NCBI GenBank assembly: GCA_950295325.1
Contig: OX485805.1
Location: 40,785,501 to 40,849,500 of the forward strand
Direction of reading: 5' to 3'
DNA from: Polytrichum commune
Taxonomy: Eukaryota; Streptophyta; Polytrichopsida; Polytrichales; Polytrichaceae
DNA: 64,000 nt
The notes under the pieces were generated by a model. It made no database searches. It had not been told where the DNA came from and was given only the letters and a program-made list of their open reading frames with translations. The translations under genes and the position numbers were made by a program. The stretch's first letter is position 1. Each line of letters starts with the position of its first letter. Positions 23,394-52,133 of the stretch are shown here, piece by piece.

Positions 23394-24509
23394 CTCATGT
23401 AGCGTTTGATTCGACAATATGGATTTTGTTTCCTCTTCAATTCTTGATAATGAGGTGTTACTACCAAGCTTCAAAGCTTTGGAAGCAAATTGTGATAAGC
23501 ATTGGCTGAAGGTGATATACATACGCCACAAGAATGAAATGAACCACAAAACACGTTCAAAAAAATATTTGAGCCTTCTCCACCATTCCCTTGGATTTGG
23601 GATAAAACTCAAAAGAAACATGGGCTCATTGGGTTGCTTGGGGGCTGCAACATCATGGATAGTCTTGAAGATTGCATCATTCTTTAATTTTCTCAAAGTC
23701 TTAAGAATATCAAGAAATACCGGCCTTTTCGAAGGTTCCGTGGACCAACATTGTTGTATCAATGATTTCAATCCTTCTGAACAAGCTTGAGGAAGTTTGG
23801 GTCTCTCACCTTTCAAGATGGAGTTCCTATAGTTACGAACAAGAACACCATCAAAGAATTTTTTTCTTGAAATGATCTCCGAACACATCATGCCGAAACT
23901 AAACACATCGGTTTTGAATGCATCTACCTTTGAACTTCTTTCATAAACCTCAGGTGCCATATACCCAGAAGTTCCATATATATTCCCATCACCACGCTCA
24001 TGTGAAGAGCTTGTCCCTTCAATTTTGGAAATACCAAAGTCAACTAGCTTCACATGCACATATTCCATACTAGTTGAATCATTTGAAGTTAGGACAACAT
24101 TATCGGGCTTCAAGTCACGATGGGCGACTTTCATATCGTGAAGGTAGCACATTCCGCTTGCAATTTGCAACATGATATCAATGGCATTTTCTTCATTGAA
24201 CATAGGTTGTTGATGTAAGAAATGTGACAAGTCCATAGTTCCTCGTTCAATGACGATTTCAAACTCTTTATTTTCTTTGCCTTGATTGTTGTCCCTCATA
24301 AAGCCACAACAAAACAATTTGATGATATTCGGATGATTCAATCCTCCCAATATACCCGCCTCTTTCCAAATGATTTTTTCATGCTCTAGGCCTTTGACTT
24401 TGATCACTTTTGTGACAGTATCAAGTTCTAACCATTGTGTGGAATATACGCTTCCGAAGTTACCTCCACCCAAGGGAACACGTGGCTTATCATATTCAGG
24501 GCGAGGATA
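23394..24509 (-). pseudogene. 3' part of the kinase exon, receptor copy 2 (split by MULE)
   Basis: Encodes the kinase domain from YPRPEYDKPR through the C-terminal hydrophobic region. It includes a glycine loop GGGNFGSV, HRDLKPDN (an RD kinase, whereas copy 1 has HCD), DFG and APE. A segment of about 20 residues after the kinase domain (around DVAAPKQPNEP) is missing from copy 1. The 5' end of the exon is not here: it resumes at 52125-52844, on the far side of the 27.6-kb insertion. The first nine bases (24501-24509, GCGAGGATA) are the target duplication. Confidence 0.9.
24501..24509. repeat. Target site duplication of the giant MULE (left)
   Basis: GCGAGGATA, repeated at 52125-52133. Copy 1 has this sequence once, near 3491-3499, in an uninterrupted kinase exon. 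Nine bases is the usual Mutator duplication length. Confidence 0.93.
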
Positions 24510-24695
24510 GGGACGACACTTGTATGTGAGCTTAGAGCGGAGAGCGGAGATTTGGAGAGCGGAGAGCGTAGAGGAAATAAAAATAGTAAACTTGTCAGAC
24601 TAAAATTAGGATATTTCAAAATAGCCAAGAATATACCAAGAATATACCAAGAATCTGACAATAATAGTAAAAAATGGACCTATTTCCGTGGAATG
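24510..24695 (+). repeat. Left terminal inverted repeat of the MULE
   Basis: Outer block at 24510-24550 and inner block CCTATTTCCGTGGAAT at about 24679-24694. Between them lie extra AGCGGAGAGCG repeats and about 90 bp that the right end lacks. The match is imperfect but clear. Confidence 0.85.
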
Positions 24696-25026
24696 TATAG
24701 GTCACAAAATAAAATAAAAACCCTGAATTTGAAATGGTCTCATTAAGTTTGGAAACCGTGAGGTGGTTGAATTATTAAAACCAAGGATGACTACAAGAAA
24801 AAATCAATGAAAATGGATTTTTTGAGATTGGTATAATTGAAGAATGAGTCAATCAAAATACAAAGGAATCAAAATAATAAACTTGCTTGGTTTTTATTCA
24901 TCACTTTTCTCTTTGTCTTATATGTGAGTCTATTCTATAGCTTGGACTTTAGCAATTATCGTTTGTGGCCGAATAGATTATAAATTGGACTCATACCCAA
25001 CATAATTGTATATACAGTTGCACACA
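24696..25026. promoter_or_regulatory. Subterminal region and likely promoter of the small MULE ORF
   Basis: AT-rich, non-coding, between the left inverted repeat and the ATG at 25027. It would contain the promoter for 25027-25491, but no clear TATA box can be singled out. Confidence 0.35.
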
Positions 25027-25491
25027 ATGGGAGATGAGAGAGACATGTTTGCTGGATTAGGATGGGAGAAGGAAATTAGAAGTCTAGGAGATCCTCATAT
25101 TCCCTTTAATCCATCGCCGGAATTTGAGTTTGCTGCTGGAAATCAAAGTAGTGATGACTACGAGCTGACTCCATTTTCGCAGTCTACACAAGCATGGAGG
25201 TGGAGGGTGCAGGAGGAGCAAAAACAATATGAGAAAAAAAAAAGGCATGAAGATGTGCCAGAGAAGGATGTTGATTTGGATGAAGACAAATCGAACGAAA
25301 CGGAGGAGGAGATGAAGGTGGAAGGGGAATCTTCGAAGTCTCTTTCATTTCGCGAACGGATGAGAGGAATGACGCCGCATCATCTTCCGCTGAAGGATCG
25401 AAAGAGAGATAAGACAGTTTCTTATATGGATTTGCTTCGACCGGGTCCACCTCCCTCGCAATCATCTAAGAAGTATACAAAACGGAAATAG
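25027..25491 (+). CDS. Small MULE-encoded charged protein, unknown function
   Basis: ORF of 154 codons if started at the ATG at 25027 (an upstream in-frame ATG at 25006 would add 7 residues). It begins MGDERDMFAGLGWEKE. A central acidic and Lys-rich region (around KDVDLDEDKSNETEEE) could form a coiled coil. It ends in a basic tail SKKYTKRK after RERMRGMTPHH. AATAAA follows at about 25534. It lies just inside the left end and converges on the transposase gene. Some MULE families carry small accessory proteins, such as the anti-silencing VANC of VANDAL elements, but I see no sequence match. Function unknown. Confidence 0.6.
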   Translation: MGDERDMFAGLGWEKEIRSLGDPHIPFNPSPEFEFAAGNQSSDDYELTPFSQSTQAWRWRVQEEQKQYEKKKRHEDVPEKDVDLDEDKSNETEEEMKVEGESSKSLSFRERMRGMTPHHLPLKDRKRDKTVSYMDLLRPGPPPSQSSKKYTKRK

Positions 25492-25652: not shown

Positions 25653-28600
25653 CTAAGAAGTAGACTTTGTCAAAATACCCCCTTCGAGGATGAGTTTGAC
25701 TTCGTTGAAGCTAAATGTCGGGGCGTGAATGAACAAATTCACTTCCGCATCTAAATTAGAAACCTTGATGAAAATGTAATACAAATGCTTACAATTCATA
25801 TAAGAATTTCGTTTGCGGCTGAACTTGGAAATCATATCCAAGAAGTATGCGCAGTTGCACTCTGGAAGAGAACTGACTGTCACTTGGTAGATCGGTGGTT
25901 GGGGTTCTGATTTGGACTGCAGTGTGATAATGCAACCAAATCCCGGTTGAGGGATCATAGTTAACTTCATAACGGTACCATGCATAGCTTCAGCAGAGGC
26001 CACCATCTGCCTCTGCTTTGCCGAAGGTGCGTTGCTGGATCGCCGAACAAGCTTGGACAATCTTGTCGGAGGGATCATGTCGGGATTTTCTGGAACACGG
26101 ATTCCAGACATATCCAGCGGGGGAGCAAAGGTGGTGAAGAGTTGAGTCGGTGTGATGCGCTCCTTTGGTGGGAGTTGAAAACCTGCGTTCTCAAGGGCGA
26201 AGATCTCCGAGCGGGTGAGGTTGGTACCAATCTTCACGGGCCAGATTGGGGGAATAGGAGGCTTCTGGTCATCAGCAGAGAACGGCATGACCCATTTCCG
26301 ACGAGGGCCCTTCACGCAACGCTCAATGTCGTCTGGGCAAAAGACAAAGTCCGTGCGCTTCATAGATTGGAGTTTGTAATGATGCCACATACCGGTGTAG
26401 GTCGGCGCAGGGACGCTCTTATTATTAGTGACGATTCTTGCGGTGCACTTCTTCTTCGTGCCCGCATGATTAGCCCAATAAGACTTCCCAGACGTATAGG
26501 GTATGTGGGCAATATGCCAAAGAGAGACATCTACTTTGGTTTCTTGCACGGCAGTGGCACGCTGGAAACCAAGTCCTGCAGGTGAAGGCACTTGAACCTC
26601 TTGTACAGAGGGGGAAGACTCCTCAATGATAGTGGGTAGTGTTTCTGGTTGAGATCGAGTGACACGCTTACCGGGGGGAGGGCGAGAGAAGTTCACGGTA
26701 TCGGGGCGGTGGGTCTCGCCATCATCACCAATTGGAGTGTCTGGTCTTCGCTTCTGCGATCCAAACACCTCGGCGCCCTCAAGGTGTGGATCGCGAGTGC
26801 AAAATTCTTCCCCACCGGACATGTCAAGCAAGACCTTCTGCAACACTGTGGGGTCGCCAGTACGCTGAGCTCGACGTTGAACACCCCTGAGCTTTAGTTC
26901 TTCTTTGCTTGGACCATCTCCGCCAATTCCACCTTTAAGGAACTGGTAGTATGCAACAACTTGTAAGAAGGCGCGAATGTAGTTGTCAACCGTAGCCACG
27001 TATAGATCTCCACCCTTGTTGCCGGAGGCTTGAAGCCACTTGTTGTGGACGGACTCCGCAAGATTGCACGACGGCATCTCGGCCAATTGGTCTTGGGTTA
27101 AAACCTTTTCATGATTGGAGAAATCAAGTATTAATATAAATGTACAGAGAGAGGAAATCGAATCCAAGAAAAACCAATAATGAATTATGAAGGAGATGTA
27201 CCAGTTCCATGAAACCACCCCATTGAAGGTAGCGGAAGTGCCAAAAAGCAAGCCAGAGCTGAAGATGCTTGAGACCGTCCTCACTTGTACAATTCGATGA
27301 CGCCCACCAAGCCTTGATAGCTAGGTACCTAGTCTCAGCCTCTTCCATAGATGACGCATTTTGATATTGAAGGCAAAGATGTCTATGTTGGTCTTGTAAC
27401 TCATGCTTTATATACGATTTCGTATGTTTTTCGAGCGATTGTTTCCAATGGAAAAAACAAGTGCGCTCACGACCCTCCATTGGAACTTTGGGATCCCCCG
27501 AACCATACACAATGCGAACAGCGTTCCAATTGGCTTGGGCACTGTCCGCCATGAAGCCTATAGAGTTTGGATGTGGGATACCGTGTCGGGCCATGACGTG
27601 GTTGAGGTTCTGCCAGAAGAGAACTTGGGCATCCTTATCCTCCGATTGGAAATCACAACATGAAATGGTCATGACCCGTTGATAAGTCCCATCGTACACA
27701 TGAGCGGCCATGGTGGTCCACCCTTTGACCCGCTTCACGTGATCGGACATCATCCACGCGTTCTCCAGGTCCCCACCCGGTTGCATCCGACGAACCAAAT
27801 CCACTCCACTTCCAGGACCAACCTCCGACATCTTGAAGACGAACACCTTGTCTGTATCGTCACCTTGTCCTGGGAATTGGTTCTGTTGGACGTAGGCCCA
27901 ATTGCTAACGCCTCGGAGCTTTGCGATGCCATCCATAACACCAAACCTCCGCAAATATTTGAAAGAGGTAACCTTAGAGCGAAGGTTTGGGGAATTCAAC
28001 TCTCTACAGCTCTCAAAAACATGTTCAAGCTCTTTTAAAGAGAAGAGACGGTGTGTGTCATTATCGCCAGAAAGGAGAAACTCACCAACAATGTCCTTTC
28101 TAGCTTCAAGGACGATCTTGCTGTGGGTGGCTTGAGGCGTACGTTCAACGTGCTCCTCAAGAAGTGCATTGATACGCTTCCGACTGTCTCTGCAGTCTCC
28201 AACCTTCACTGGATGTTGATGAGAACCGAGATGAATGCAGGCTCTTTGGGATGACTCCTTCCCATGGACGTAGAAGATTTTGGCCTCGCATAGTGCAATG
28301 CATTTGGGAGGCTCTTTACAGATCCTGCAGACAAGAGTAGATCCGAATGGCACAATGCCAGAGAGAGGGAAAGGATCTTTAGTGAAACCTTCAAATTCTG
28401 TGTCATTGACCTTAGAGGTACGATGGGCGCGTTGAAGGTAATCACAACTCGGGTTTTGGCATTGGAGATGGTCAACACAGGTAGAGGAACGAAATGCAAG
28501 GCCAACGTCGTTTGTAATGTTGGTGGTTTGAGTCTTAGTCCAAACATGGCCATCATATTGTTTGTCCATGCCGTCCAACGACTTGGCCCTGGTTTGAGAT

Positions 28601-29325
28601 GAAGAGACTTCTGCTGCAGGGAGGACAAATAACTGGGTGCCATCGAAACGAGGGGGAAGGTGATTAACTTCTTGGATTTTGATTTTATCGTAATCTATTT
28701 TCTTGAGGACGTTCTTACTACCGGGCATAGAGCCAAGACGACGAAGACATTGAACAATAGTTTGAGGAGGTTTAGACGTAGGGACCGAAGGAGTTGAAGG
28801 GACAGAGCTAGATGGAGAAGGCGTTATGTAGGATGCAAAGGGAAACAAATGAGGGGAATCATGGACAGCAGCCTTATGCACTGGTACATCTTCACTCGAA
28901 GAATCAGACAAGTCTATAACGTTGTCTACACCAGGCTCGGTCTTGACGCTTATTACCGGGGGTGTGCTAAAGACAACAGTGGATGATCGAAGAGGAGGAA
29001 GGATTTCTGTTGACACTCCCATCTGAGAATCTAGCCAGCCACAAACCCTATACTTTCCCGCGCCAAGCTCCCACACTACATTGCCATTGTCAGTTACCTT
29101 GGAGGTCTCATGGAAGGTATGAACGAGCAATCCAGTATCAGGATGGTAGATCTCACACTCTACCCATATTGTACTAGCTTTCAAAGAGAACCTAATGCTA
29201 AGATGAAGCTCCGAGACAACAACAATACCTTGTGCACCAATGGGGAATATAATAGGGACCCCGATGCCATGTGAACGAAGTTCGGCCATCTCAGAGACGG
29301 GAGGAAGAATTGAGGTGGAAGCCAT
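25653..29325 (-). CDS. MULE transposase with SIM-like motif, GCM/WRKY-like zinc cluster and SWIM finger
   Basis: Two exons, 29325-27202 and 27104-25653, joined in phase 0 across a 97-bp GT-AG intron, give 1,191 residues. In order: VIDLSDSSSED (136-146), a SUMO-interaction-like motif; a Cys/His cluster at 289-371 (CQNPSC, CRIC, C342, C346, then C363 and HLGSHQH), like GCM/WRKY zinc domains fused to MULE transposases; a catalytic core with candidate Asp528 (MSDHV) and Asp594 (FMADS), followed by C623-x2-H626; then NLAESVHNKW; and a C-terminal SWIM finger with C1124, C1126, C1146 and H1148. The third acidic residue cannot be fixed by eye. I chose ATG 29325 (MASTS) over an upstream in-frame ATG at 29364. 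No stop or frameshift is seen, so the element may be autonomous. Product: DDE transposase acting on the MULE ends. Confidence 0.85.
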
Positions 29326-29644
29326 GAAGGCAGAGAAAGCAAACGTGAAGGAACAAAGATGCAAAGATGCATAGAGAAGGAGAATGGTGATGACGATGAA
29401 GTTATAAACAAATACGCATGAATATCAGGAAGGAGACAAAACTATCAGGCATCCTAAAAAAAGATACCCCTAATTACAAAGATGGTTGTCAGATAGTAAA
29501 GCGCGCCTCCCATCGGGAGGTATTGCAATTATATACTGAGAAGAATGCGATTGCTCACTTTCTTTCCAATGTGTGAGTTTGATGTGGTGAGGTTGTGGAA
29601 AGGAAATAGAGCGAATAGGTCTGAATTGCGGGAGGGTTGAACAC
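29326..29644. promoter_or_regulatory. Divergent promoter region of the MULE
   Basis: About 320 bp separate the transposase ATG (29325, minus) from the ATG at 29645 (plus). Both promoters must lie here, so the two genes may be co-regulated. A CGGGAGGTATTGCAATTATATAC stretch near 29513 includes a TATA-like ATTATATA. Confidence 0.5.
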
Positions 29645-30584
29645 ATGAAGGAAATAGGCAATTCACAACCTCCGACAACGGAACCATCTAAGAAAAAGAA
29701 GAGGAGGCGATCGTCTACACATTACACTGATAAGAAGAGAAAGACAGTGAGGACACAAAAGTCACAGGCAAGGAAAGCGCCAATCGAGGGCCGTGGGATG
29801 CCCGAGGATTTGAGCCAAAGCATAAAGGACCTGCGGAAACCTTCGTGGAGGCTAGACTGTGGGATTCGGCCTTTTCATTTATCACCGATTGTAGAAGAGG
29901 CGGACGGAAGTAAAGCGCAACCAATGGCAGAAGTGGAGGAGTTGGGAAACGACAGCATCCAAGAGGACTCACGCGAAGAGACAAACTCTACAAGTGTTGT
30001 ACGTATTCTCCATATATTCAGTTGTTTGAGCACATAATGAAAATGGTAGAACATATTCAACTGTGAAACAACTTTTCTTTTAGATATTATGGTTTGTCAT
30101 CATTGTTATAAACATTGTTTTATCTTAAATATAGGAAGAGGGGGGGAGTGGAGATAGTGGAAATATCTACGAAGAAGACAACAAGGAGGTAGCACAACAA
30201 ATTGAGAAGGCGTTAGAAGAGCGAGAACCGATGTCGGGACAACCAACGATTCAAGCAAGAGAAAAAATGAAGGCGTCCAAGAGGAAAGCGGCAAAGGAAG
30301 ATCTGAAATCAATTTTTTTGGGAGGCCGCGAAAGAGCTGAAGGAGGAGATCCATGCGCAGAAACCCTAAGTGTGGATGTTGTGATCCCTGCTTCAAGATT
30401 TCTGCGAAGAAAGGCGGGCGGAACACAACAAACATCAAGGCGAGGGCGTGGCCGCGGGAGAGGAATGGCGCAAGTAAACCTCGGAGATTCGAGAAGCACT
30501 CCAATATCGCCAACAGAGGACGGGACCTCGGAAGATAGTGGCGCCAATATAGGGGCTTCAGTGGAGGGCATACTCCAAATTCTG
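29645..30584 (+). CDS. 5' exons of the MULE cargo gene (basic/acidic N-terminal region)
   Basis: Exon 1 (29645-29998, 118 codons) and exon 2 (30135-30584, 150 codons) join in phase 0. The protein begins with a nuclear-localisation-like KKKKRRRSS. It continues with mixed acidic segments, a Lys/Arg helix (MKASKRKAAKEDLKS), an RGRGRGRG patch and a Ser-rich tail. No enzymatic domain is visible. A GTAAGG donor at 30585 is in phase 0 with the acceptor at 46966, so these exons may be the N-terminus of the ParB/methyltransferase-like protein (1,356 residues in total). If unspliced, translation stops at 30656 and this is a separate gene. Transcript data would decide. Confidence 0.6.
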
Positions 30585-30821
30585 GTAAGGTGTCGGGCTC
30601 TCGGCCAAGCTATGTTCGCCAACGTTTTTGCTTTCTATCACCTTGATTTCTCATAGTATTTGGAATATCAGCTTGACTTGCTTTCGGCCTTGTCTTGATT
30701 TGGGTTTAGGAACATGTCAGGAAAGGTATGTTTGTGCTTGAAAAATCAAAATGTTATGTGCACATCAATTGCTCTCGGCCTGGGCTCGTTTTGTGTAGTG
30801 CACAAGAACGAGCTAGGGCAA

Positions 30822-32421
30822 GAGGCCTCGGATCCGAGGCCTCATATTTGTGTAAGTTTGAGTATGTGAGAGGTAGGGTTTTGAGAGAGGTGAGGTTCTT
30901 GATTTCTCAAACTAATAGAATGTCAACTTTCTTGCTTTCTTGATTCCTTGCTCTCGGCCGTTTCTTCTATTGTGTAGTGCATAAGTGGGAGCCATAGGAA
31001 GAGGCCTCGGATCCGAGGCCTCTTATTTGTGGGTAGGTTTGTGCTTGAAAAATCAAAATGTTATGTGCACATCAATTGCTCTCGGCCTTGTCTTGTTTTG
31101 TGTAGTGCATAAGAAGGAGCTATGGGAAGAGGCCTCGGATCCGAGGCCTCTTATTTGTGTAAGTTTGAGTATGTGAGAGGTAGGGTTTTGAGAGAGGTGA
31201 GGTTCTTGATTTCTCAAACTAATGGAATGTCAACTTTCTTGCTTTCTTGATTCCTTGCTCTCGGCCATTTCTTCTATTGTGTAGTGCATAACTGGGAGCC
31301 ATAGGAAGAGGCCTCGGATCCGAGGCCTCTTATTTGTGGGTAGGTTTGTGCTTGAAAAATCAAAATGTTTTGTCCACATCGATTGCTCTCGGCCTTGTCT
31401 CGTTTTGTGTAGTGCATAAGAAGGAGCTATGGGAAGAGGCCTCGGATCCGAGGCCTCATATTTGTGTAAGTTTGAGTATGTGAGAGGTAGGGTTTTGAGA
31501 GAGGCGAGGTTCTTGATTTCTCAACCTAATGGAATGTCAACTTTCTTGCTTTCTTGATTCCTTGCTCTCGGCCGTTTCTTCTATTGTGTAGTGCATAAGT
31601 GGGAGCCATAGGAAGAGGCCTCGGATCCGAGGCCTTTTATTGTGGGTAGGTTTGTGCTTGAAAAATCAAAATGTTATGTGCACATCAATTGCTCTCGGCC
31701 TTGTTTTGTTTTGTGTAGTGCATAAGAAGGAGCTAGGGGAAGAGGCCTCGGATCCGAGGCCTCATATTTGTGTAAGTTTGAGTATGTGAGAGGTAGGGTT
31801 TTGAGAGAGGTGAGGTTCTTGATTTCTCAAACTAATGGAATGTCAACTTTCTTCCATTTTTGATTCCTTGCTCTCTGCCTTGTGCCCCACGGGCGAACGC
31901 CCGTGGGCCATGTAACAAGTAACTTGGTTAGGCATGTCTTTATGAGGCACTTTGGTTGGTTCTGAGTATGTAAACTAGTTTGTGTGTGAGGCCTCGGATC
32001 CGAGGCCACTTGAGGTTTTTTGATTCAAAGTATAACTTGTATGAATGAGGCACTTTGCTTGTTTTTGAGGATGTAAACTAGTTTGTGAATGAGGCCTCGG
32101 ATCCGAGGCCTCTTTTATGTGTTCCAAAACAAGTGTACGGATGAGGCACTTTGGTTTGTTTTGAGTATGTAAACTAGTTTGTGAATGAGGCCTCGGATCC
32201 GAGGCCTCTTTTATGTGTTCCAAAACAAGTGTAGAGAAGAGGCACTTTGGTTGGTTTTGAGTATGTAAACTAGTTTGTGTGTAAGGCCTCGGATCCGAGG
32301 CCTCTCGGCCGAGGCCACTTGAGGTTTTTTGATTCAAAGTATAACTTGTATGAATGAGGCACTTTGCTTGTTTTTGAGGATGTAAACTAGTTTGTGAATG
32401 AGGCCTCGGATCCGAGGCCTC
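30822..32421. repeat. Palindrome array, left part (12 copies)
   Basis: A 22-bp perfect palindrome (half-site GAGGCCTCGGA plus its complement; contains StuI and BamHI sites) starts at 30822, 31001, 31129, 31308, 31436, 31615, 31742, 31988, 32091, 32187, 32283 and 32400. Three copies have an end mismatch. Spacing alternates 179 and 128 bp up to 31742 (a 307-bp higher-order unit), then falls to about 96-117 bp. The sequence between palindromes is also repeated (GTTTGAGTATGTGAGAGG and GTAAACTAGTTTGTG families). Confidence 0.95.
31884..31911. repeat. GC-rich hairpin within the array
   Basis: CCCACGGGCG, a 2-nt spacer AA, then CGCCCGTGGG form a near-perfect hairpin. Related versions occur near 45727, 45794 and 46176, each followed by CCATGTAACAAGTAA. 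A third hairpin type (CAGTCCCCCGGGAG to CTCCCGGGACTG) lies at about 44358-44386. Confidence 0.85.
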
Positions 32422-32459
32422 TTTTATGTGTTCCAAAACAAGTGTACGGATGAGGCACT

Positions 32460-32462
32460 TTG
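32460..32462. repeat. CACTA target duplication TTG (left)
   Basis: TTG, repeated at 43565-43567. Removing the element and one copy restores GAGGCACTTTGGTTTG, which is exactly the repeat unit seen at about 32147. Confidence 0.92.
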
Positions 32463-33246
32463 CACTACTAGAATACAGGGTCCGCGCCACTGCAACATTT
32501 TGTCCATGTCCCACTAACGATGTGCAGCAGTGGATGAAGACACTAACCTCATGGTGGAGCATACATGTTTGTCCTGAATATATGTATATATTCACATGTG
32601 TATATGCATGTGTATGTGTGTGTGTATGTGAAGTTACGACCACATGGACAGTCGCTATTAGGGTGCATGCATATGGATTGCGGCATGAAATGTCATGTAT
32701 TGTGTGATAATTGGAGCGGCCATTTTTGGTGACAACATCAAATTCAATGCAATTCTGTGTTTTCCGCATGCAGCATGAACATCGTGTTATGTGTTCTGCT
32801 CGTACATGTGTTCAGCATTGCACAAGTGACTGCGAGTGCCATATATATGTAATGTTCAGAACATTTTGCACGTACTGCACTGAAAGATTTTTTGTTCTGC
32901 ATACAAAACCGCATGTCTTTGCAGTATAAATATATATTACTTGAGGCAAACCCACCTCTTGACGTGCATATATACAATTGTGACAGAGGTTCACTGTTTC
33001 TAAGACCTCCAAAAGCACTTAGATTTATATAAGCTGGAGGTGGGGTGTCCATGCGTGCATGTCACTGAACACTATACCTAGACGCGGCCACTAACCCAAG
33101 AAGTACTAGCTCCTTCGTTCTCTGCCACAACACCAAAATTCCCTACTTCACATGAATATGACCACAACACATCGTCCCTCAACTGATGTCCACTACATAT
33201 ATATATGCTACAGCTGCCACATACTTTGTCAACATAGAGCCCCACA
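32463..33246. repeat. CACTA left inverted repeat and subterminal region
   Basis: The inverted repeat covers 32463-32490. The rest is non-coding, with TATATGCATGTG and TGTATGTGTG motifs of the kind transposon-encoded proteins bind in other CACTA ends. It lies downstream of the TNP2 stop (33247). Confidence 0.7.
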
Positions 33247-37469: not shown

Positions 37470-37523
37470 GAATACCAGCAACGTGGCCAAACCTGTCTTT
37501 TGGCCACAACACATAATCAACAA

Positions 37524-39870: not shown

Positions 39871-42539
39871 ATGTATAGTAATGAACTTTACGTGTTGGCT
39901 CCGCAGCAGGGGGGACACCAAGTGGCACACGTTGTTTTCCACCCCATGCAGTGGGGAGGCCAACCAACGGTGCCGTGTGGGAGGGTGCAGTTAAACATGC
40001 CTGGACAGAATGAATGCCGCATGACAATCACTGATTATCCACTAAATCCCTCAACGTTGTCGAAACTGCCAGTATTTGTGGAGGGGAGAGGTCAATATAC
40101 CATTCATCCATCTTTGAACTCCGCAGCTCCAGGAAGTTCTAGGGGCGACGAAGGGAGCAACATTGGTCCCCTGCTAACATCAAACACATCGCCAGATAGC
40201 GCTAGAAGATTGAGACTAAGTGCACGGAAAAAAGAAAGTAGGCGTCGTCTGTACAACTATAGGAAAGAAGTGCGGAAGTGTTTGGAAGAGGCACGGCCTA
40301 TTAGGGTTAGATGCGATACAAACGAAATAGGAGAAATTTGTGGGCTGAAAGCCAAATTCGAAGATGCAGTGAAAAGTGTAGCTTACTCTATTCTGGATCT
40401 GAACGCCAGATCGTTCGCATGCCATTCACGGAAGAACATCAAGTTTGTAGATGAAGAGGCTCGCAAGCAGTTTGAATTCTATCCTTACCCGCTCAGAGAA
40501 GGGTACACCGAGAAATACCTGAGGGAACACTTGAAGCAACTTAGGAATAAATGGAAGAGCTGGTGGTTGGCATATGGAGATTCAAGTACACCCCATGATT
40601 GCCCAGATGATGTTTGGCGAAATTGGATACGATATTGGAAGACACCTGCTGCACAGGAAGAGAGCATGAAGGGGAAGGAACGCAGAAGCAAGGCGAGAAC
40701 TCCAAGCAAAACAGGGAGAAGACGAAGCAGTGACGCATACGATGAAGAGGTGATCAGCTTAATTGGAGTAGGCTATGCGGTGCTCAAAACATACGTAAAG
40801 GACGCAAGGATTAACATGTGCAGCTGTGGATGTAGGGAAAGGATGCACTTATTTCCCAAGCGTGGACGAATGCAGAGGGCGGCCCAAGAAGTGCCAGCAA
40901 CACAAAGGTATGACAATTCCCACCCACCAACACCCTTTGCTGATTCTTCATGTAAGTATGTGTGGAATTGTTGACATGTCTTTGTGAAAACTCTGGTGCA
41001 CAGAATTTATGTCGTCAGAGGTAATTCTTGCGTCACACACAACTGACATTGTGAGGGGGATTTTCATTGCAGGGGAGAAAGAAACACGAAGCAGAGCAAG
41101 CCATGGGGACTTCAAGAAGTTTGGAGAATGATTGGCAAGTGCAGATTACTGAGAAAGTGAATTTTCTGGAGACAAAGATGATATCCATGGACAATGGCCT
41201 TGCCGGAGCAGGTGAGAACATAAAAAAAATATTGGAGCACCTACTGAAGAATTCGTCAGGGGGGACAACAACTCCCCGCAAAAAACAGTGTCGAGGCCCC
41301 CAACTATCCCCTGTGAATGACAACCAGCGCAGTGCGATTTCGGAGATTGCACGTGCGCAACATCCCAGAATCGAGCACATGTCTCCGAGGGGTCATTCGC
41401 AAATGCGCAATCATGGAGACGGTGCGGGAAGGGATGGGGAGGATGATGAAACTCAGGGTTATGATAATGAAGTAGTGGACTTGGGTGATGATGCACCATA
41501 TGTAATCCCGTGCACACAAATGAAAAAGGGAAATGCCAACTTTGGGAAAGGGAAAGGCATTGTAGTAATTGACTCCCAATCTGGCGGTGAAGATAACGAC
41601 GGCAGGTCCAGGGGAGCCCGCATGGAGGAGTATCAGAAGCGTCGACCACAACAGTTACAAGGAGAAGAGGATAGGGGGAAGAGGAGCAAAGGCACAACAG
41701 AAGCTGGAAGGAGGAGGCCGCAAAACTCATATGTTCGGGAGGATGCTGTACATAAAACAAGTACCCACATGTATAACTTCTCTGAAGAGGAGGAGAATGA
41801 TTCTGAAACGGAAACGTTGTCACCTCCAAGGAGGAGCGAGAAGAGAAGTGTTGCTATAGATTTTGGGGAGGGAGAAGAAACGACAGCGGCTGCAGGAAGG
41901 CCACGTAGCAGTAGTGACCGAAAGACAACACAGGCATGTCGATCGCTTGCCACCCCTGCGTGCGAGCGTGTTCCCCCAACCACCCAGACATACCGCCGAC
42001 AGAAAAATTCTGATGAGGCACATGGTGTGCAACCCAGTAGAGGCTCAGGAGTGGCTGCAACAGAGGTGCCACAGACCCTGAATCCCAGGAAGAACGGGGT
42101 GAGTTACAAAGCATACTTGTTGGTGCAGTGTTTGTCTGTCTTTACCACAACATTCATGGAAGTTGACATAAAATTGTGTTTGTACAACCTGGGTGTATTT
42201 GAATTGGGTTGATGTTTGGGTTTGCAGGTCCCTTTACGTTTCAATACGCAATGTTGGCTCCTACACCCAGAATTTCCCGGGAAGGTTGTTGCAGCAGGAA
42301 GGGCAGGAGTGTTTGGAAAGTCCAGAGCAAGAAAGCACAAGGACCTAAGTGACCAGTGTGAACCAGGGAACCAAATGGTGCAAGTGACAGAGGTATTGTT
42401 GCCATTGGTGCCCGTTATGTTTGATGAAGAAAGGCATGGCATTCAAAACCTGGACGAAGCTGCAGTGCCTCATGCACCGCGCGACACGTGGTTGAAGTGG
42501 GAGTCAAACTATATGATCGAGAAACCCCGATCGTACTGA
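39871..42539 (+). CDS. TNP1-like CACTA protein
   Basis: Parts: 39871-40907 (346 codons; helical Lys/Arg-rich region with KYLREHLKQLRNKWKSWW and DDVWRNWIRYWKT, resembling the plant En/Spm Ptta domain), 41073-42098 (charged, low complexity, coiled-coil start) and 42228-42539. The last exon (VAAGRAGVFGK to WLKWESNYMIE) looks like the C-terminal domain of TNP1-type proteins. Exons 2 and 3 join in phase 0. The apparent donor at 40908 and acceptor at 41072 do not join in frame, so either a small exon was missed or the gene is damaged. TNP1/TNPA proteins bind subterminal repeats and aid transposition. A SIM-like IVVIDSQSGGEDND lies in the middle part. Confidence 0.65.
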
Positions 42540-43564
42540 ATCTTGAAGAATAACACGCCATGACAGAGCATACCGTATTTTGTGACAGCCACAACTTGGG
42601 ATAGTATGACCAGAGTAGTATCATAGTGATAGCAATTGGGTTGACAAGAAAGGAGATTATGTTCTGTAGGGTGAGCTTTGGTTGTGGTTCGCACTCCACA
42701 TTGCAGAATTGCAGGGTGTGGAAGCCTGCAGGGAATTCCTCACATGTGGACGGCATTTTGTACATTTATTTTGGTGATTGGAATGGCTGATCATGAATAT
42801 GTACAAAAATATTGCGCACAATGTGTTGTATGAATAAATCTGAATGCAACAATAGTGGTTGCAATTAATGTTGGTTCACCGCATAGTTGCAGAATACGAT
42901 GGGTCATTTCAAACTGTGAGGGGGAATCAGAACACCGAACCGCACTTTGGGCATGTCATTTCATGTGTGAAGGCCTTGACAGAGAAGACTAAATTGTGTG
43001 CAGAACATGTGTCATGTATATACACATATGGATCCATATGTGTTTGCAATATTGAATGCGCGCATTTGTCCTCCCAGTGCAAGTCCCATGGAAGTGTATT
43101 TGCAGTGTTTGCTCTTTTTATTTGTTGCCCCGATGGACTTGTACTGTAGGCGCATTTGCTGTGTATGTGCATTCCATATGTGCGCACGTTGGGCATGCAC
43201 ATGCATGCATGTGCACAGTGGCGTTGTTGATGTTTTAATTTCATGTCCAACATGCATGTATGAACAACCTGGTGAAACGGAAGCCCTGTATTGGTTTCTG
43301 TGACATTGTCATGTATGACCCTATGTACAATTTCTATGAACGAGCCACACGCTGTTTGCAGCTACGTACAGAGCCAATTTATTTTGTCCCCCCCACTGAC
43401 GTGCACAAACGCATGTGCGTGACATCACGCGTTATGTTTATGGTTCTTTACAACTGGTCACCACCAACCTAGACATATTTGTGTTCCACCGTGGTGCAGT
43501 GGGTCCAAAATGCGCAAAAATTGGCACATTTCCTTGGTGGCACGGACCCTGTATTCTAGTAGTG
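42540..43564. repeat. CACTA right subterminal region and inverted repeat
   Basis: About 1 kb of non-coding sequence rich in CATATG and TGCATG motifs (for example the ATATGGATCCATAT palindrome near 43026). It ends in the inverted repeat (43537-43564). Short ORFs here show no domain. Confidence 0.7.
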
Positions 43565-43600
43565 TTGGTTTGTTTTGAGTATGTAAACTAGTTTGTGAAT

Positions 43601-46600
43601 GAGGCCTCGGATCCGAGGCCTCTTTTATGTGTTCCAAAACAAGTGTAGAGAAGAGGCACTTTGGTTGGTTTTGAGTATGTAAACTAGTTTGTGTGTAAGG
43701 CCTCGGATCCGAGGCCTCTCGGCCGAGGCCACTTGAGGTTTTTTGATTCAAAGTATAACTTGTATGAATGAGGCACTTTGCTTGTTTTTGAGGATGTAAA
43801 CTAGTTTGTGAATGAGGCCTCGGATCCGAGGCCTCTTTTATGTGTTCCAAAACAAGTGTACGGAAGAGGCACTTTGGTTGGTTTTGAGGATGTAAACTAG
43901 TTTGTGAATGAGGCCTCGGATCCGAGGCCTCTTTTATGTGTTCCAAAACAAGTGTACGGATGAGGCACTTTGGTTTGTTTTGAGTATGTAAACTAGTTTG
44001 TGAATGAGGCCTCGGATCCGAGGCCTCTTTTATGTGTTCCAAAACAAGTGTAGAGAAGAGGCACTTTGGTTGGTTTTGAGTATGTAAACTAGTTTGTGAA
44101 TGAGGCCTCGGATCCGAGGCCTCTTTTATGTGTTCCAAAACTAGTGTACGGATGAGGTACTATGGTTGGTTTGGAGTACGTAAATTACTTTGTGTGTGAG
44201 CCCTCGGATCCGAGGCCTCTCAGCCGAGGCCACTTGAGGTTTTTTGATTCAACGTATAGCTTGTATGAATGAGGCACTTTGCTTGTTTTTGAGTATGTAC
44301 ACTAGTTTGAAAATGAGGCCTCGGATCCGAGGCCTCCTTTTAGTGCCCTCGATCAGCAGTCCCCCGGGAGTGGCTCCCGGGACTGCGAATGTTTAAACAG
44401 GCATAACTTCCTTGATTTTTGCCCAAATGGGGCAAGTGAGGTGTCCATCGGCATCTACATTTCACGTAGATGACGATAGAGTGGTTGATTGTTAGATTCG
44501 GAGACCACACATGGAAGATATGGAGGTCTGAAGCTGCGGGGGGGGGGGAATGTGTTTTGTTAAGTGCATAAGTAGGAGCTTTGGGAAGAGGCCTCGGATC
44601 CGAGGCCTCTTTTTTGTGTCAAGGTTTGTGCTTGAAAAATCAAAATGTTAGGTTCATTTTTGAATTCTCTTGGCCATTTTCTGTAGTATGTATTTCATAA
44701 GGAGGGGCATTCGGAAGAGGCCTCGGATCCGAGGCCTCATTTTTGTGTCAAGGTATGTGCATGAAAAATTAAAAATTTATGTTCATTTTTGAATGCTCTT
44801 GGCCCTCTTGTTTTGGGTAGTGCATAAGTAGGTACTTTGTGAAGAGGCCTTGGATCCGAGGCCTCATTTTTGTGTCAAGGTAAGTGCTTGAAAAATGAAA
44901 ATCTTATGTTCATTTTTGAATGCTCTTGGCCTTCCTGTTTTGGGAAGAGGCCTCGGATCCGAGGCCTCATGTTTGAGTCAATTTTATTTAAGAAAAATCA
45001 AAATGTTATGTTCGTGTAAGATTGCTCTCGGCCTTCTTGTTTTGGGGACTACATGAGTAGGAGGTTTGTGAAGAGGCCTCGGATCCGAGGCCTCTTGTTT
45101 GTGTAAGTTTGAGTATGTGAGAGGTAGGGTTTTGAGAGAGGCGAGGTTCTTGATTTCTCAAACTAATGGAATGTCAACTTTCTTGCTTTCTTGATTCCTT
45201 GCTCTCGGCCATTTCTTCTATTGGGTAGTGCATAAGTGGGAGCCATAGGAAGAGGCCTCGGATCCGAGGCCTCTTATTTGTGGGTAGGTTTGTTCTTGAA
45301 AAATCAAAATGTTATGTGCACATCAATTGTTGTCGGCCTTGTCTTGTTTTGTGTAGTGCATAAGAAGCAGCTAGGGGAAGAGGCCTCGGATCCGAGGCCT
45401 CATATTTGTGTAAGTTTGAGTATGTGAAAGGTAGGGTTTTGAGAGAGGCGAGGTTCTTGATTTCTCAAACTAATGGAATGTCAACTTTCTTGCTTTCTTG
45501 ATTCCTTGCTTTCGGCCATTTCTTCTATTGGGTAGTGCATAAGTGGGAGCCATAGGAAGAGGCCTCGGATCCGAGGCCTCTTATTTGTGGGTAGGTTTGT
45601 GCTTGAAAAATCAAAATGTTTTGTCCACATCGATTGCTCTCGGCCTTGTCTCGTTTTGTGTAGTGCATAAGAAGGAGCTAGGGGAAGAGGCCTCGGATCC
45701 GAGGCCTCTTATTTGTGTAAGTTTGAGTATGTGAAACGCCCGTGGGCCATGTAACAAGTAATTTGGTTAGGTTTTAACATCATCAAATGTGTGCCCCACG
45801 GGTGAACACCGGTGGGCCATGTAACAGGTAACTTGGGTAGGATTTAGCATCATCATGGGGAGATGTCTCCATGTCAAATATTTTTAAAAATTATGATTTT
45901 TTTTCTCTATATTCATAACCATTGATTATATCTTTTGTATATTTTTTTGAAATTTTTTGTCATCTTCATTTTTTCTAGTAATTGTTTTAGTTGAATTCTG
46001 CGTCATTCTAGGTAGAAATGGTATGTTTTCTAGAAAAATATGGTCATCAAATTTGGTCATGATATTTTACTCCGTAATAGATATCATGTATATCTACCTC
46101 CCAAAAACATTTGAGAAAATTTTGACCCATTTTGGTGATGCAACTTGGCAATGGAGTGACCTCCCCTGGAACGTCATCAAATGTGAACCTCACGGGTGAA
46201 CACCCGTGAGCCATGTAACAAGTAAATTGGTTAGGTTTTAAAATCATCAAGGAGGGGCATTTGGAAGAGGCCTCGGATCCGAGGCCTCATTTTTGAGTCA
46301 GGTTGTGTGCTTGAAAAATAAAAATGTTAGGTTCATTTTTGAATTCTCTCGGCCATTTTATGTAGTATGTATTTCATAAGGAGGGGCATTCGGAAGAGGC
46401 CTCGGATCAGAGGCCTCATTTTTGTGTCAAGGTATGTGCTTGAAAAATGAAAATCTTATGTTCATTTTCGAATCCTCTCGGCCTTCTTGTTTTGGGTAGT
46501 GAATAAGTATGTGTTTTGGGAAGAGGCCTCGGATCCGAGGCCTCATGTTTGTGTCAATTTTATGCTAGAAAAATCAGAATGTTATGTTCGTGTAAGATTG

Positions 46601-46797
46601 CTCTCGGCCTTCTTGTTTTGGGTACTACATGAGTAGGAGGTTTGTGAAGAGGCCTCGGATCCGAGGCCTCATTTTGGAGACAATGTATGTGCTTGAAAAA
46701 TCAAACTGCTATGTTCACATAAGATTTCTCTCGGCCTTTTTCTTTTGGATAGTGCATAAGGAGGAGGTAGGAAAAGAGGCCTCGGATCCGAGGCCTC
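43601..46797. repeat. Palindrome array, right part (22 copies)
   Basis: The array continues after the CACTA. Palindromes start at 43601, 43697, 43814, 43910, 44006, 44102, 44198, 44315, 44588, 44717, 44844, 44947, 45073, 45252, 45380, 45559, 45687, 46267, 46396, 46523, 46649 and 46776. A few carry one mismatch. The 179/128-bp alternation returns at 45073-45687. A non-palindromic stretch at about 45730-46260 holds the CCCGTGGG hairpin family and AT-rich sequence. Confidence 0.95.
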
Positions 46798-46966: not shown

Positions 46967-49900
46967 GATATGGACTCTTCACAGGTTGCGCAATCGCAAC
47001 CCCAATTTGGAGAGGATATTGTTCTTGCGGCCCCCGCGGTTGAAGTTGAAGTTGTGCAGGTTGAGAGTTTCAATTCGCAGGGCCCATTACAAGTAGAGGT
47101 GAGTTGGATAGTTGTTGAGTAATTTGTTGAGCAAGTTTTTTGAGTTCTAGCTTTCTAAGCATGGTTTTATTGTTTGTGTTTTTGTTAGGCTCTCGCAATG
47201 AGCGAAGATGCCGTTCAAGCAGTTGCCAACACGGATCCCGTGGTGTGTGAGCTTGAGCTTCGGAAATCACAAAAAGAGGACTCCATTGGTGTTATCCAAC
47301 GCCTCCGGATTAAGCCAACCTGTAAGTCCCGCTTATCCATTCCTTTGTGCCGCTTGAGAGCCCTCCCTCTCGTCCGTCCTATCAGTGAGGTTGAGGTGCA
47401 GCGCTTGGAATGTGAATTTGTAATGGGATACCGAGAGGGTGATCGGGTTCTTTACGTGTCTTCTTTCAACGACGTTCCCGTGGACCTCCCCATTCCCCCT
47501 GGCATTATGGCCTCTTGGAGCCCTCTCTGGCAAGAGGCCTCCGCAGAATTTGACGCCAAGCTCAAGGAGGATCCGGATCTTGCACATTTCGCCGGGAAGA
47601 TGTTCTTCGTCTGGGAAGGCAATCATCGTCTCACCGCTTGGTGGAGACACATCAATAACCACCACGCCGATGACAAGAGTTGGCATATCTCGGTGGATTG
47701 CATTGTTGTTGACCCTAGAGGATACACCGGTGTATTCTTCAATGCCATGAGCGACATTAATTGGTAAGCTCATTCATTTTTTTCATTCATTTTTTCATTT
47801 TTGTTTCAATTCTTTTCCATTCTTTTCACCTCACGTTCCTCACATATTTTCTCTCAGGTCAACCGAGCATGATTATGTCAAGGCAAACATTCCGGCCAAG
47901 CTCCTTCGAATCCGCACTTTTGGGAGGTTAGAGTTGTCCACCTTCAAGGATCTTATATCGCCATCTGACTACAAAGCATGCGAGAAGATAAAGGAGAGTC
48001 GCCCAACTTGGTACACCTTGACCGCGGATGTGTTCGTTAAGTTTCTTTACAAGGTATGATTTTATGCATTCAATTATTTAGAGCTTCCAACATAGATAAT
48101 TTCCATGCCGATTATATGAACTCACAAGGTCATTTCTTGCAGAGAGACATTTCGGCTCAAGCAGACCTTGCAGTGAGACATTACCGTGAGACCACACCCG
48201 TTGCGGAGAGGTCGGCCACTGAGATTTGGAATGTTATGACCAAGGCCCAGGAAAGGACAATCAAAAGTATTCGGGCCCGTTCTTTTGAGAAATACATATC
48301 CGTTGCACACCCTGACAATGGAGAGGATTTCTTTCATGAGGTACTCTTTTGAACTCAAATCACTCTTGAACGCAATTCATCCAAATCACTCTTCAACTCT
48401 ATTACTCTTTTGAACTCAAATCATTTTTATTTTGTGCACAGATTGACCGCCATTTTAATGAGTTCTCTTCGACGGACATGACAATTGAAAAATTGCAAAA
48501 AATTATCACATGCCCGGTCGAAGCTTCGTTCAAAGCTAAATGGCTTCACTGGTGGAACGCCCCCCTTCGTGAAAGGTTAGATAACAAGTTCCCCGTCGAC
48601 AAGCCTATGAGGGAGAGGGTTTTGGACGACTGGCTGCACAAGGCGTCCTTCTGGGCTCAGGTAAATCCATTCCTCGGCCTTCTTCATTTTCATTTTCCTC
48701 TATTCCATTTATCTCATATCTAATCATCTCCCTCTCTGCAGTTGGAGAAGGAAGTCGCGGTTGAAATTGAGACCTTAGAGGAGAGCCTCTCCGTCGACAT
48801 TGATTGGGACGCATCAGAAACTATCTTGCGCCCTCGTGAGTACGTTGATCATTGGCGGATTGTCCTTTGGGACAAGGCCTTCAAGCCTTATTTCGGCGAT
48901 AAGCCTGACATCGCCTTTGCCAAAGGTGATAATCTCTTGGAGTTCGAGGAGGGGGCTCTCGCTATCAAGCGTGTGGCCTATCGGTAATACATCTATCCTC
49001 CACTTTGCACCTCTCCTTAATGTCATTTCTTGCTCGTTTTCTTGGTTTTCTTACATTCTTGTTTTGTCATGTAGGTATATCATGAGAGAATTGGTTGTGA
49101 AGAATGCATTGGCCTCATCTTCCTTGCCGGACTACCTCTCGGACTGGGTGAATATTTTTTCTAGCCTCTGCGTGTACACGACCGCGCAAACAAACAAGTT
49201 TTCCGAATTGCACTTGCAGGGTGGTGGATGGTACTTGGATTGTGCTGCAGGATTTGTCCCCGGGGAAGAGAAGGCTTTGTTTGCTAGCCTTGTGGGTAGT
49301 GCTCTGGATAATAACATTGTTACCTTGGAGGAGCCTAACATCGTTGAGCTTCCCCCTCCTCCTCCTAAGGCACCAAGGAGAAAGGGCAAAGCAAAGAAGA
49401 CCGCCACTCAAGCATCTTCCCAAGTTCTCACTTGGTCTGCTTCTAAGACCCCGGTTGAGCCAGCCACCCTTCCACACAGTCCATCTATCGCTCCCTCCGT
49501 TGCTCCCTCTTTTGCCCCTTCTGTTACTCCATCTGCATTTCATCCACAATCTCTTGCCACTCCATCTCACAATGGCACTTCTCTCCTCTCTTTGCCTCGC
49601 AAGAGGAAGGCCGCTCTCTTGGATACCAGTGCCACCTCTTCGGATGCCCCTAACACGCTTACCCTCATCGAAAATGTGGACATGGTTCAACTAATGCTGG
49701 ATTCCGAGGTTGCCGGAGGTCCCCTCCCCGCATATACCCGCATCCAAGAGTTCATTGCCAAGGTTTGTATACTTGCCTTCGTCAATTCTCAATTTTTTTT
49801 CCTTTGCTTTGCTTATTTTTTTCCTTCTTGTTTTCTCATGAAGTTTCAATTGCAGGTTGGGACAGGTCGTTCCCGTGTGAACACCTCGACTACAACTCAC

Positions 49901-51144
49901 AAGGGCCTCGATTTGCTCTTCGCCGACATTCCCGAGAATTTGCCGGTGCCGAACATCTCCACCGATGTTCCTGCTTGGAACAAGCTCCATGAATCATACT
50001 ATGAGTGTCTTTTTGCATTTGCGAAATCTAACATCTATGATCATGGTGTCATTGTTCTTGCCCATTGTGCGAGTGCCAGTGTTTCTAGGAGTATTTTCGA
50101 TTGGGCACACACTTATGACTTCTACATCGCGGAAGATTGGTTTGGAATGAATGATTTGGACCTCCAATCTCCCGTTGTTCCCTCTGGAGTGGTAAGCAAG
50201 TCTCCTTCTCTTCCCCTTTCGTATTGCTTATCAATTCAATTTCAATTCAATTTCATTTTCATTGTTGCAGACTCGGAAGTTCAGCATCAAAGTTCTTGTT
50301 CGTGTTAACTCCGTTCTTAGAGTGCGGGAGGAGGCCATACAAGAGTATGGTTACAACCTCCAACGAGATGGATGGTTGAATACCTTCACCGATGAGAAGA
50401 GCCAGACGATGCGCAGTGATGGGGTACCTTGGCGAGGTGCCCGTGAGAAGCATCATGTTTTTTTTTCCATCATTCTCGCTACTCTCACCGACAAGAATGA
50501 TGTTATTATGGACTGGCAGTGTGGTGTAGGTACGCCTTCTTTTTCAACTTCATCCTTACTTTGAATTTTCCATTACTTTTCCTTGACTAGTTTCCATACT
50601 AACATTTTACCTCTCTTTGCTTTAGGTGGTTCGATTACAGCATGTCGCTCCCTTGAGCGGCATATTGTGGCCCTTGAGAGTGACCCCGTCATTTTCAATT
50701 CACTCCTACTCTCCATGCGCGATCCCCAGCCTGCGCGTATATCTCGCTCAGTTGCTGCACCGTCTACATCTATCTTTGATCCTCCTCAAAAGATGACCAA
50801 GAGGGCATTCGGATTCCTTTGTGCGTAAGTTTGCTTTCTATATTTTGCCATGTTTGCCTTGATTTCAAATTCTCATTTTCTAGTGTCATCATGTTTCTAA
50901 TCCTTTTGTTTGGGTGTTTAGAGAGCCAGCGGAGGTCGCAGTCATTCGTCGAGACATGTTTTCAAGTCCTCTGAAGCCGTTTGAGCTTCCCCCGTATGTT
51001 AGTGCAATGGCGGATTGTTTTGCGAAGGCGGAGTCCCCATCTCCTCCTCGCGTTCGTCATTTCTCGCGTGGAACACGAAATCTTTTCTTGTTAGAAGCAA
51101 ATGAGGGTGAGGAAAGTGATAGGGAATGTTCTCCAAGCCCTTAG
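46967..51144 (+). CDS. ParB-like / beta-class DNA methyltransferase-like MULE cargo protein
   Basis: Exons 46967-47098, 47189-47763, 47858-48053, 48143-48340, 48442-48660, 48742-48983, 49075-49762, 49856-50191, 50271-50529, 50626-50824 and 50922-51144; every junction is GT-AG and keeps the frame. With the 5' exons the CDS is 4,071 nt (1,356 residues); alone it could start at ATG 46970. Numbering from 29645: a ParB/sulfiredoxin-like motif FFVWEGNHRLTAWW at about 451-464, then WHISVDCIVVD; a Pro-rich basic linker (PPPPPKAPRRKGKAKK) around 880; LDLLFADIPEN at 1036-1046, in the place of motif IV (D/N-PP-Y/W); HHVFFSIILATLT then VIMDWQCGVGGS (1208-1219), in the place of motifs X and I; and IVALESDP. 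Motif IV before motif I is the beta-class order. DIPE for DPPY and DWQCGVGGS for DPFCGSGTT suggest lost or altered catalysis. AATAAA at about 51199. Confidence 0.78.
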
Positions 51145-52031
51145 TTTATCATTTTGGTTTTGGAGATTATAACTCCGTTTGTTGTTGTTATCCGGCTTTA
51201 ATAAAAGTTGTGTGTTGGTTTTATTTTTGATATCCGGCGCAAGTTTCATTTTTTCTCTCCATTATTTCATATTCATATGTCAACCCGCATTGCATTCTTT
51301 ATTTTTTCTTCATCGTTCGGATCTCTTAACTTCTAGTCACAAAACAATCTAGCTCTCGGCTCTTAGTGTGAGATCTTAGTTATAGGGGGACCATACTTTC
51401 TATTAGTGTGGATGGTTTATTTTATGGTTGTGCACACTAATCACATTGGCCGTCTTCCAATCCCAATTGCTATATAGCAATTGGAAGTTTTGTTTGGCAC
51501 GCGAACATAACCTCGTCAAACTTTTTAAATTGAACTTCATGTTGTTCTCAAAGAGCCGGCACGTCACCTCAAAAATTTCCAAGAGGATTCTAAGGTTGGA
51601 CTTGGGGGATTTGTCTTTGAGGTCTTTGGCTAAGCTAAGGACTGAATTGGAAGGCTGTTATGGTGCGACGGAGTTTTATGGCATGTTCTTTGGATCATTT
51701 TACCCATATTAGACATGCCCGGCAAATAGGGTGTAGATGGCCCTAAACTAGAGTATATAGCTATTTTAACTAACTACCCATTTTTGTAAGTCTTGAGGTT
51801 GGCTACATTTAGTTGACCAATAAAATATTATGTGTATGGTATTTTGATTTCAATTTGGTGACGTCAGCCCTAATTTAATATGATACATTTGAAAATATAT
51901 ACTATAAGAAGTTTGATAACAAATGCAATCTTCCACGCCTATAGGATCCGTTGGTTTCTCAAACAATTCTGGGTTATTATGTCCACAGGAATGGGGGTAC
52001 CTTTCCAAATATAGAATTCAAACTATCTCTA
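51145..52031. other. MULE right internal non-coding region
   Basis: Contains the AATAAA of the cargo gene (about 51199) and about 800 bp of AT-rich sequence. A 94-residue ORF at 51428-51712 has no domain. Confidence 0.55.
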
Positions 52032-52124
52032 ATTCCACGGAAATAGGCACTGCTTCTCCTAAAATTACCCAACAAAATCTAAATTTTCCGCTCTCCGCTC
52101 TACGCTCACATACTTGAGTTTCCC
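52032..52124 (-). repeat. Right terminal inverted repeat of the MULE
   Basis: Read inward on the minus strand: GGGAAACTCAAGTATGTG, then the AGAGCGGAGAGCGGA block, then CCTATTTCCGTGGAAT. It matches the left end. Confidence 0.87.
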
Positions 52125-52133
52125 GCGAGGATA
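52125..52133. repeat. Target site duplication of the MULE (right)
   Basis: GCGAGGATA, identical to 24501-24509. Confidence 0.93.

Follow-up and report, generated by a model that had tools for sequence, protein, structure and literature searches.

A multicopy Mutator-type element of Polytrichum commune with a methyltransferase-related gene and an array of palindromes

The window analysed here is a stretch of 64,000 nucleotides from the genome of Polytrichum commune (assembly GCA_950295325.1, contig OX485805.1, forward-strand positions 40,785,501 to 40,849,500). One of its two receptor genes is split by a large insertion, which an initial annotation described as one giant Mutator-like element (MULE). 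Two transposons lie there: an outer Mutator-type element and a CACTA transposon nested within it. The outer element carries a transposase gene and, divergently from it, a gene whose protein has a domain related to bacterial N4/N6 DNA methyltransferases. An array of palindromes lies between these genes; neither the second gene nor the array figured in the initial annotation. By analogy with the VANDAL elements of Arabidopsis, the second protein may be a factor through which the element recognizes its own DNA.

The insertion and its target site

The inserted DNA is flanked by two copies of the 10-bp sequence GCGAGGATAG, at 24501-24510 and 52125-52134 (both + strand), and a single copy at 3492-3501 (+) marks the empty site in an uninterrupted paralogue. 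The duplication is thus 10 bp long, one more than had been reported, and the insert, comprising the outer element and the nested CACTA transposon, therefore occupies 24511-52124 (27,614 bp). The sequence GCGAGGATA is found at 3492, 24501 and 52125, and three matches occurred in none of 100 shuffles. Self-alignment gives the same picture: 2653-3501 matches 23659-24510 at 90.3% identity, 3492-8949 matches 52125-57570 at 97.4%, and the two blocks overlap by exactly the 10 bp of the duplication.

The split exon belongs to receptor copy 2, on the minus strand, with its 5' part at 52125-52847 (read from the joined flanks) and its 3' part at 23256-24510 (Pkinase in Pfam, E 1.3e-43). When the flank excerpts of copy 2 are joined by script they form one frame of 541 amino acids; the matching excerpt of copy 1 gives 538, and the whole kinase exon of copy 1 is a single open frame of 607 amino acids (2394-4214). 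Copy 1 is a tandem paralogue of copy 2 and not, as first proposed, its uninterrupted allele. The kinase was identified by its Pfam match and the label NLR comes from frames read by eye; the interrupted gene looks like a plant immune receptor. Both receptor frames contain 144-bp tandem repeats, which by eye encode leucine-rich repeats, with 4.7 units at 1-686, where the window edge cuts the array, and 15.3 units at 19418-21603.

The precise insertion, the duplication, the matching ends, the split exon and the empty sister site are all present in the sequence. That the two kinase fragments are separate loci joined by misassembly is extremely improbable, given the exact duplication, the paralogous empty site and the existence of 20 other copies with paired ends, 18 of them flanked by duplications of 9-10 bp.

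A multicopy element with a nested CACTA transposon

The inverted ends noted earlier do exist, as terminal repeats that are short and imperfect. By self-alignment the left repeat lies at 24511-24550 (+) and the right one at 52086-52124 (-). The outermost dozen bases of the two ends are partly unlike (GGACGACACTTG and GGGAAACTCAAG); past them, both ends have a 27-base stretch in common, GTATGTGAGC(T/G)TAGAGCGGAGAGCGGA, with one mismatch. Searches of the 408-Mb genome, in which the window lies on contig C3, gave at least 40 scored matches for the left end (the best 40 of 339 candidates were scored) and at least 41 listed matches for the right end (best 40 of 254 scored). Among the matches listed, 20 further copies were paired by hand, 10 taken at full length and 10 as ends only, so that the search for other copies with the same ends and duplications, suggested with the initial annotation, was borne out.

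The 20 copies are 12.8-34.5 kb long. Duplications of 10 bp flank 17 of them and one (C2:54.2) has a duplication of 9 bp; C1:28.0 and C4:4.8 have none and were retained, the right-end match of C1:28.0 being without its outer 17 bases. With the ends set as GGACG...CCC, a script finds an exact 10-bp duplication in 16 of the 20; that of C7:12.7 comes from a separate end comparison, the script apparently having used another end. The ten full copies, compared with the window element over their main colinear stretches, show about 96-98% identity. Without its CACTA transposon the window element measures 16,509 bp, and eight of the ten full-length sister copies measure 16.2-18.1 kb; the two shorter ones (12.8 and 15.0 kb) have deletions.

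MULEs make target-site duplications of 8-11 bp, a range that covers those seen here, and the short, imperfect terminal inverted repeats are common to copies throughout the genome. The label "Mutator-type" rests on this duplication and these ends. A 16.5-kb multicopy element of this type has inserted into the kinase exon of copy 2, making the 10-bp duplication. With Mutator/MuDR and other MULEs it shares duplications of 9-10 bp and inverted ends, and MuDR likewise has a two-gene autonomous layout. It differs from them in its length, in its long internal palindrome arrays and in its transposase: in hmmscan, the Pfam MULE profiles matched neither the window transposase nor any of the six homologues, out of 23, that were scanned. 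The label "MULE transposase" given initially is accordingly not retained, and because the transposase fails this profile test the element is not filed as a MULE, though its ends and duplications behave as they do in one.

The nested CACTA transposon occupies 32463-43564 (11,102 bp), has the ends CACTACTAGAATACAGGGTCCG(C/T)GCCAC, and is flanked by a 3-bp duplication, TTG, at 32460-32462 and 43565-43567. Its CACTA...TAGTG inverted ends have one mismatch in the first 28 bases. On the minus strand it encodes a tnp2-type transposase (35457-37526; PF02992, E 3.1e-64) and the DUF4218 part of a CACTA transposase (34488-35399; PF13960, E 1.6e-32), and on the plus strand a Transposase_24-like frame (39853-40974; 26.6 bits, just under the cut-off of 28.7). 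Termini, 3-bp duplication and the tnp2 and DUF4218 proteins are all those of CACTA (En/Spm) elements; nothing unusual was seen in it, and it is an ordinary member. A 50-base query made by joining its flanks and removing one TTG matched copy C4_47.5 exactly (50/50) and eight of the other nine copies with one or two mismatches; the best that the deleted copy C7_12.7 offers is a match with 25 mismatches. Since the site lies within a tandem array, such a match shows a sequence empty of CACTA, perhaps in a different repeat unit. The CACTA transposon was inserted later, into the internal repeat array of the outer element.

At least two insertion events are needed in place of the single one first proposed. 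One giant 27.6-kb MULE with captured cargo would fit the intact ends and duplication, but it is contradicted by the CACTA-free site in another copy, and also by the CACTA termini, 3-bp duplication and genes within the insert, and is very improbable. The cargo had been called unusual; much of it is the CACTA transposon's own gene set. The corrected anatomy takes away a false case of a giant MULE.

Two divergent genes in the outer element

The transposase gene, on the minus strand, consists of two predicted exons (27202-29325 and 25653-27104) that splice to 1191 amino acids; the second has a SWIM-like Cys/His end by eye. Exon 1 lies in the open frame 27124-29424, by which residues are numbered here. 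The 23 homologues are 43-88% identical across this exon, and the columns invariant in the 24 aligned sequences include D561, D591, D627, E653, C656 and H659. MULE transposases have a DDE/RNase H fold with a C(2)H motif. A profile search of the PDB gave nothing useful, and a scan of viral contigs no relative of the transposase; a scan of genome contigs found one, L064 (CADCWO010000080.1), on a 4.1-kb contig in a cyanobacterial bin, which is probably contaminating plant DNA. Three transposase matches in the genome (G000:C3:58494857, C3:12062835 and C3:13620559) lie within unusually long open frames of 2390-2527 residues.

The second gene lies divergently to the transposase gene, on the plus strand. 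Nine exons, predicted from GT-AG boundaries and reading frame, start at 47198 and give a protein of 968 amino acids. Exon 1 (47198-47763) encodes a conserved N-terminal domain with a WEGNHR motif, exons 2-6 occupy 47858-49762, and exons 7-9 (49856-50825) encode the methyltransferase-related domain; where exon 9 ends is known approximately, and the gene likely has one more, final exon that reaches to about 51142. A ParB reading of the N-terminal domain, prompted by WEGNHR, was rejected: there was no ParB match in Pfam, PHROGs or the PDB, and when it was compared by hhalign with four phage-type proteins the probability was 0.2%; in three of these four the start looks ParB-like by eye and is joined to a methyltransferase.

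By sequence similarity, the C-terminal domain is related to bacterial N4/N6 DNA methyltransferases. The window domain resembles CcrM (NCBIfam model, E 0.0012, 17.8 bits, far below the model's cut-off) and DpnA (PDB, E 0.008). Searching the genome with PF01555 yielded five matches. Two of them, C1:9662150 and C4:44111740, exceed the cut-off of 26.7 bits (32.2 and 30.6); their proteins are 24% identical to the window protein and share PWRGA-EK, DIP and ERHI with it, and their homologue P0024 is likewise above the cut-off (E 9e-7, 29.5 bits). The other three matches are on the small contigs C10 and C12 and look bacterial or phage-like. These contigs of G000 hold the bacterial/phage-type methyltransferase genes L057, L058 and L059, one of them by eye a ParB-like fusion, and are likely contaminants.

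In the window protein the motif I position reads DWQCGVGG and the motif IV position ADIPE, the latter in all nine of the 11 copies in which the stretch was aligned. An intact catalytic motif IV has the form (D/N/S)PP(Y/F/W), as in the DPPY of CcrM. This form is absent from the window family (DIPE) and from the relatives, which have DIPY or DIPD. Catalysis is therefore doubtful, and for this reason the protein is called methyltransferase-related and not a methyltransferase.

Selection on the two genes was assessed from derived single-base codon variants among the 11 copies, with transitions weighted twice. The second gene has 68 synonymous and 120 nonsynonymous variants and 5 stops, a nonsynonymous to synonymous ratio 0.62 of neutral (p 0.0015); the transposase gene has 59, 91 and 2, respectively, with a ratio 0.54 of neutral (p 0.0003). 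The pooled pairwise omega is 0.42 for both genes, from pairs that are not independent. These values point to purifying selection on both genes.

Three small frames on the plus strand of the outer element (25006-25491, 29591-30037 and 30135-30656) are open in most copies, and in the first two most indels between copies are 3 or 9 bases long. Selection tests on the three were non-significant (p 0.47, 0.09 and 0.11, in that order). The frames may be additional genes, or else 5' exons belonging to the second gene. Outside the insert, a frame at 57980-58504 (-) resembles by eye the C-terminal end of a hAT transposase.

The palindrome array and its counterparts in other families

Tandem arrays, broken by the CACTA transposon, lie between the divergent genes (30725-46797). 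Perfect palindromes around CCTCGGATCCGAGG number 31 in the window element, every one of them between the two genes, and the 22-mer GAGGCCTCGGATCCGAGGCCTC occurs there in 27 exact copies. When up to six mismatches to the 22-mer are allowed there are 37 sites in the window: the 27 exact ones, seven with one mismatch and three with four or five. Nine of the ten other full elements have 24-38 copies of the palindrome, and the tenth, which is deleted, has eight. The array begins about 1.4 kb from the start of the transposase gene and takes up about 5 kb of the outer element.

Since the palindromes found here lie within tandem units, and palindromes are able to start replication slippage, the array might have no binding function and have arisen simply through tandem duplication. 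This is improbable, because the palindrome stands out from the repeats that contain it. Within the 22 bases conservation averages 1.86 bits per base, against 0.78 in the flanks. Across the 11 elements the palindromic 16-mer occurs 8-38 times and the commonest other repeated 16-mer 3-13 times; in the 10 undeleted elements the figures are 24-38 and 7-13. Units of different sequence must therefore share the palindrome.

A distant family in the same genome repeats the divergent layout with a different palindrome. In the region at C1:9662150 (L062 and L063) a degenerate transposase, 38-47% identical to that of the window, lies on one strand; the opposite strand holds a second gene that is 22-32% identical and is interrupted by a stop in exon 1. 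Between them, at intervals of about 100 bp, are seven sites resembling TTTGTGCGCTAGCGCACAAA, of which one is a perfect palindrome; the window motif was not found in this region within six mismatches.

Three further upstream regions, L065-L067, were taken from the 64 transposase matches scored genome-wide, selected for their different frame lengths. L066 has TGTCTCGGtgCCGAGACA four times, one with a single changed base, in a 295-bp repeat. L065 has the window motif again (two perfect sites and two with one mismatch) and also a second motif, GTTTCGGGCCCGAAAC, seen as a single perfect site within a repeat present in 2.3 copies. L067 has GCCGGtgCCGGC alone, with 5-bp arms and four repeats. The L067 motif and the second L065 motif are weak and suggestive only. 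Iteration of a family-specific motif in non-coding DNA is clear in the window family, L062 and L066; in L065 the motif is shared, and in L067 it is weak.

All five motifs, from five families and including the two weak ones, have CG at -4/-3 and +3/+4 about their centre; the frequency of CG in the window outside the insert is 0.022. The motifs may share ancestry, so the common CG is to be read as conservation and not as five independent events.

The pairing of the two genes was followed through the genome with the transposase (the best 64 of 2290 candidates were scored) and with the N-terminal exon of the second gene (best 150 of 1278). The exon lies divergently within 20 kb of 19 of the 64 scored transposase matches, and any other arrangement was seen at two; 500 random placements gave a mean of 0.26 pairs and at most 3. 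Divergent pairing was found for 13 of the 14 matches that have the 766-amino-acid frame length of the window family and for 6 of the 50 others. By our own count from the table, 118 of the 150 scored exon matches have no stop. Contig C4 holds 46 of the 150, against 21.7 expected by length (p 3.5e-7), and 40 of these 46 are at 42-59 Mb, which is perhaps a sex chromosome or heterochromatic arm.

A candidate self-recognition system

VANDAL elements encode VANC as a second protein, whose targets are tandem repeats in non-coding DNA; the motifs vary among related families, and the transposase is more conserved than the second protein (PMC5735166, PMC10398659). All of these features recur here: a second protein, tandem non-coding motifs that differ between families, and a better-conserved transposase. 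The differences are the methyltransferase-related domain, the long palindromic motif and the position of the array between divergent genes. The terminal inverted repeats are a further one, as VANDALs are described as elements without such repeats and with short degenerate repeats instead (PMC6446971).

Because of this VANDAL/VANC-like layout we favour, at a little better than even, a Mutator-type element that carries a methyltransferase-related self-recognition factor together with an array of its own binding sites. The second protein, probably as a dimer, would bind the palindrome array of its own family. It would keep copies of that family active, either by opposing host silencing or by marking element DNA, a role resembling that of VANC proteins for VANDAL elements. 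Given the altered motif IV, a protein that binds but does not catalyse is somewhat more probable than one that actively methylates DNA.

Several results weigh against this interpretation. The window domain by itself falls below the PF01555 cut-off (E 0.11, 12.8 bits against 26.7), the whole spliced protein has no homologue at E <= 0.001 among 7999 candidates scored, and its N-terminal domain has no meaningful match to any known family, DNA-binding or other. Some pairwise ratios of nonsynonymous to synonymous divergence for the transposase, taken against the window copy, are near 1. The evidence from L065-L067 consists of transposase matches and upstream motifs. Finally, 45 of the 64 scored transposase matches have no partner among the matches listed, although a missing partner means little since both lists hold only the best-scored matches.

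A different account of the same layout is that the transposase binds at the palindromes, or that they act as bidirectional promoters, and that the second protein helps transposition, as MURB is thought to do in maize. The array does lie between two divergent genes, where promoters are expected, and iterated sites at which the element's own proteins bind are a feature of CACTA-type elements. For a promoter, however, a span of about 5 kb starting some 1.4 kb from the transposase gene is large, and the palindrome varies by family while its CG positions are kept. Both array size and family variation are compatible with binding by the transposase. We consider this account rather unlikely on balance.

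If the domain were catalytic, the second protein could be an active DNA methyltransferase and place N4-methylcytosine or N6-methyladenine as marks on the element at its palindromes. Its relatives do reach the PF01555 cut-off, each of the five motifs holds two CG dinucleotides, and the main window motif contains GATC. The motif IV sequences, ADIPE in every aligned copy and DIPY or DIPD in the relatives where CcrM has DPPY, argue against such an activity, which on present sequences is distinctly unlikely. Bacterial-type N4/N6 domains in eukaryotes are also known from the Marchantia 4mC methyltransferase and from N4CMT of bdelloid rotifers, which are host genes (PMC8885841). The likeness, drawn from their description, is in the type of domain; here the gene lies within a transposon family and its motif IV is altered.

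We found no paper in the open-licence literature searched on this combination of features, nor any, Polytrichum included, on the element itself. To our knowledge VANDAL/VANC is the one plant transposon system known to combine sequence-specific anti-silencing with co-evolving target repeats; it was searched for by name, and others may exist. Starting from the self-recognition reading, a broader proposal can be put forward tentatively, as possible though short of probable. A large, diversified group of transposons of this genome may encode a self-recognition protein that derives from a methyltransferase and co-evolves with palindrome arrays, which are specific to each family and built on a CGSNNSCG core. 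This would be a second, independent invention by transposons of sequence-specific anti-silencing or self-marking, made from a bacterial DNA-modification enzyme. If true, a second such system with a different-looking protein would point to convergent evolution and offer a clear way to test how selfish DNA distinguishes its own copies from the DNA of the host, and a transposon-borne relative would be added to the N4/N6 DNA methyltransferases.

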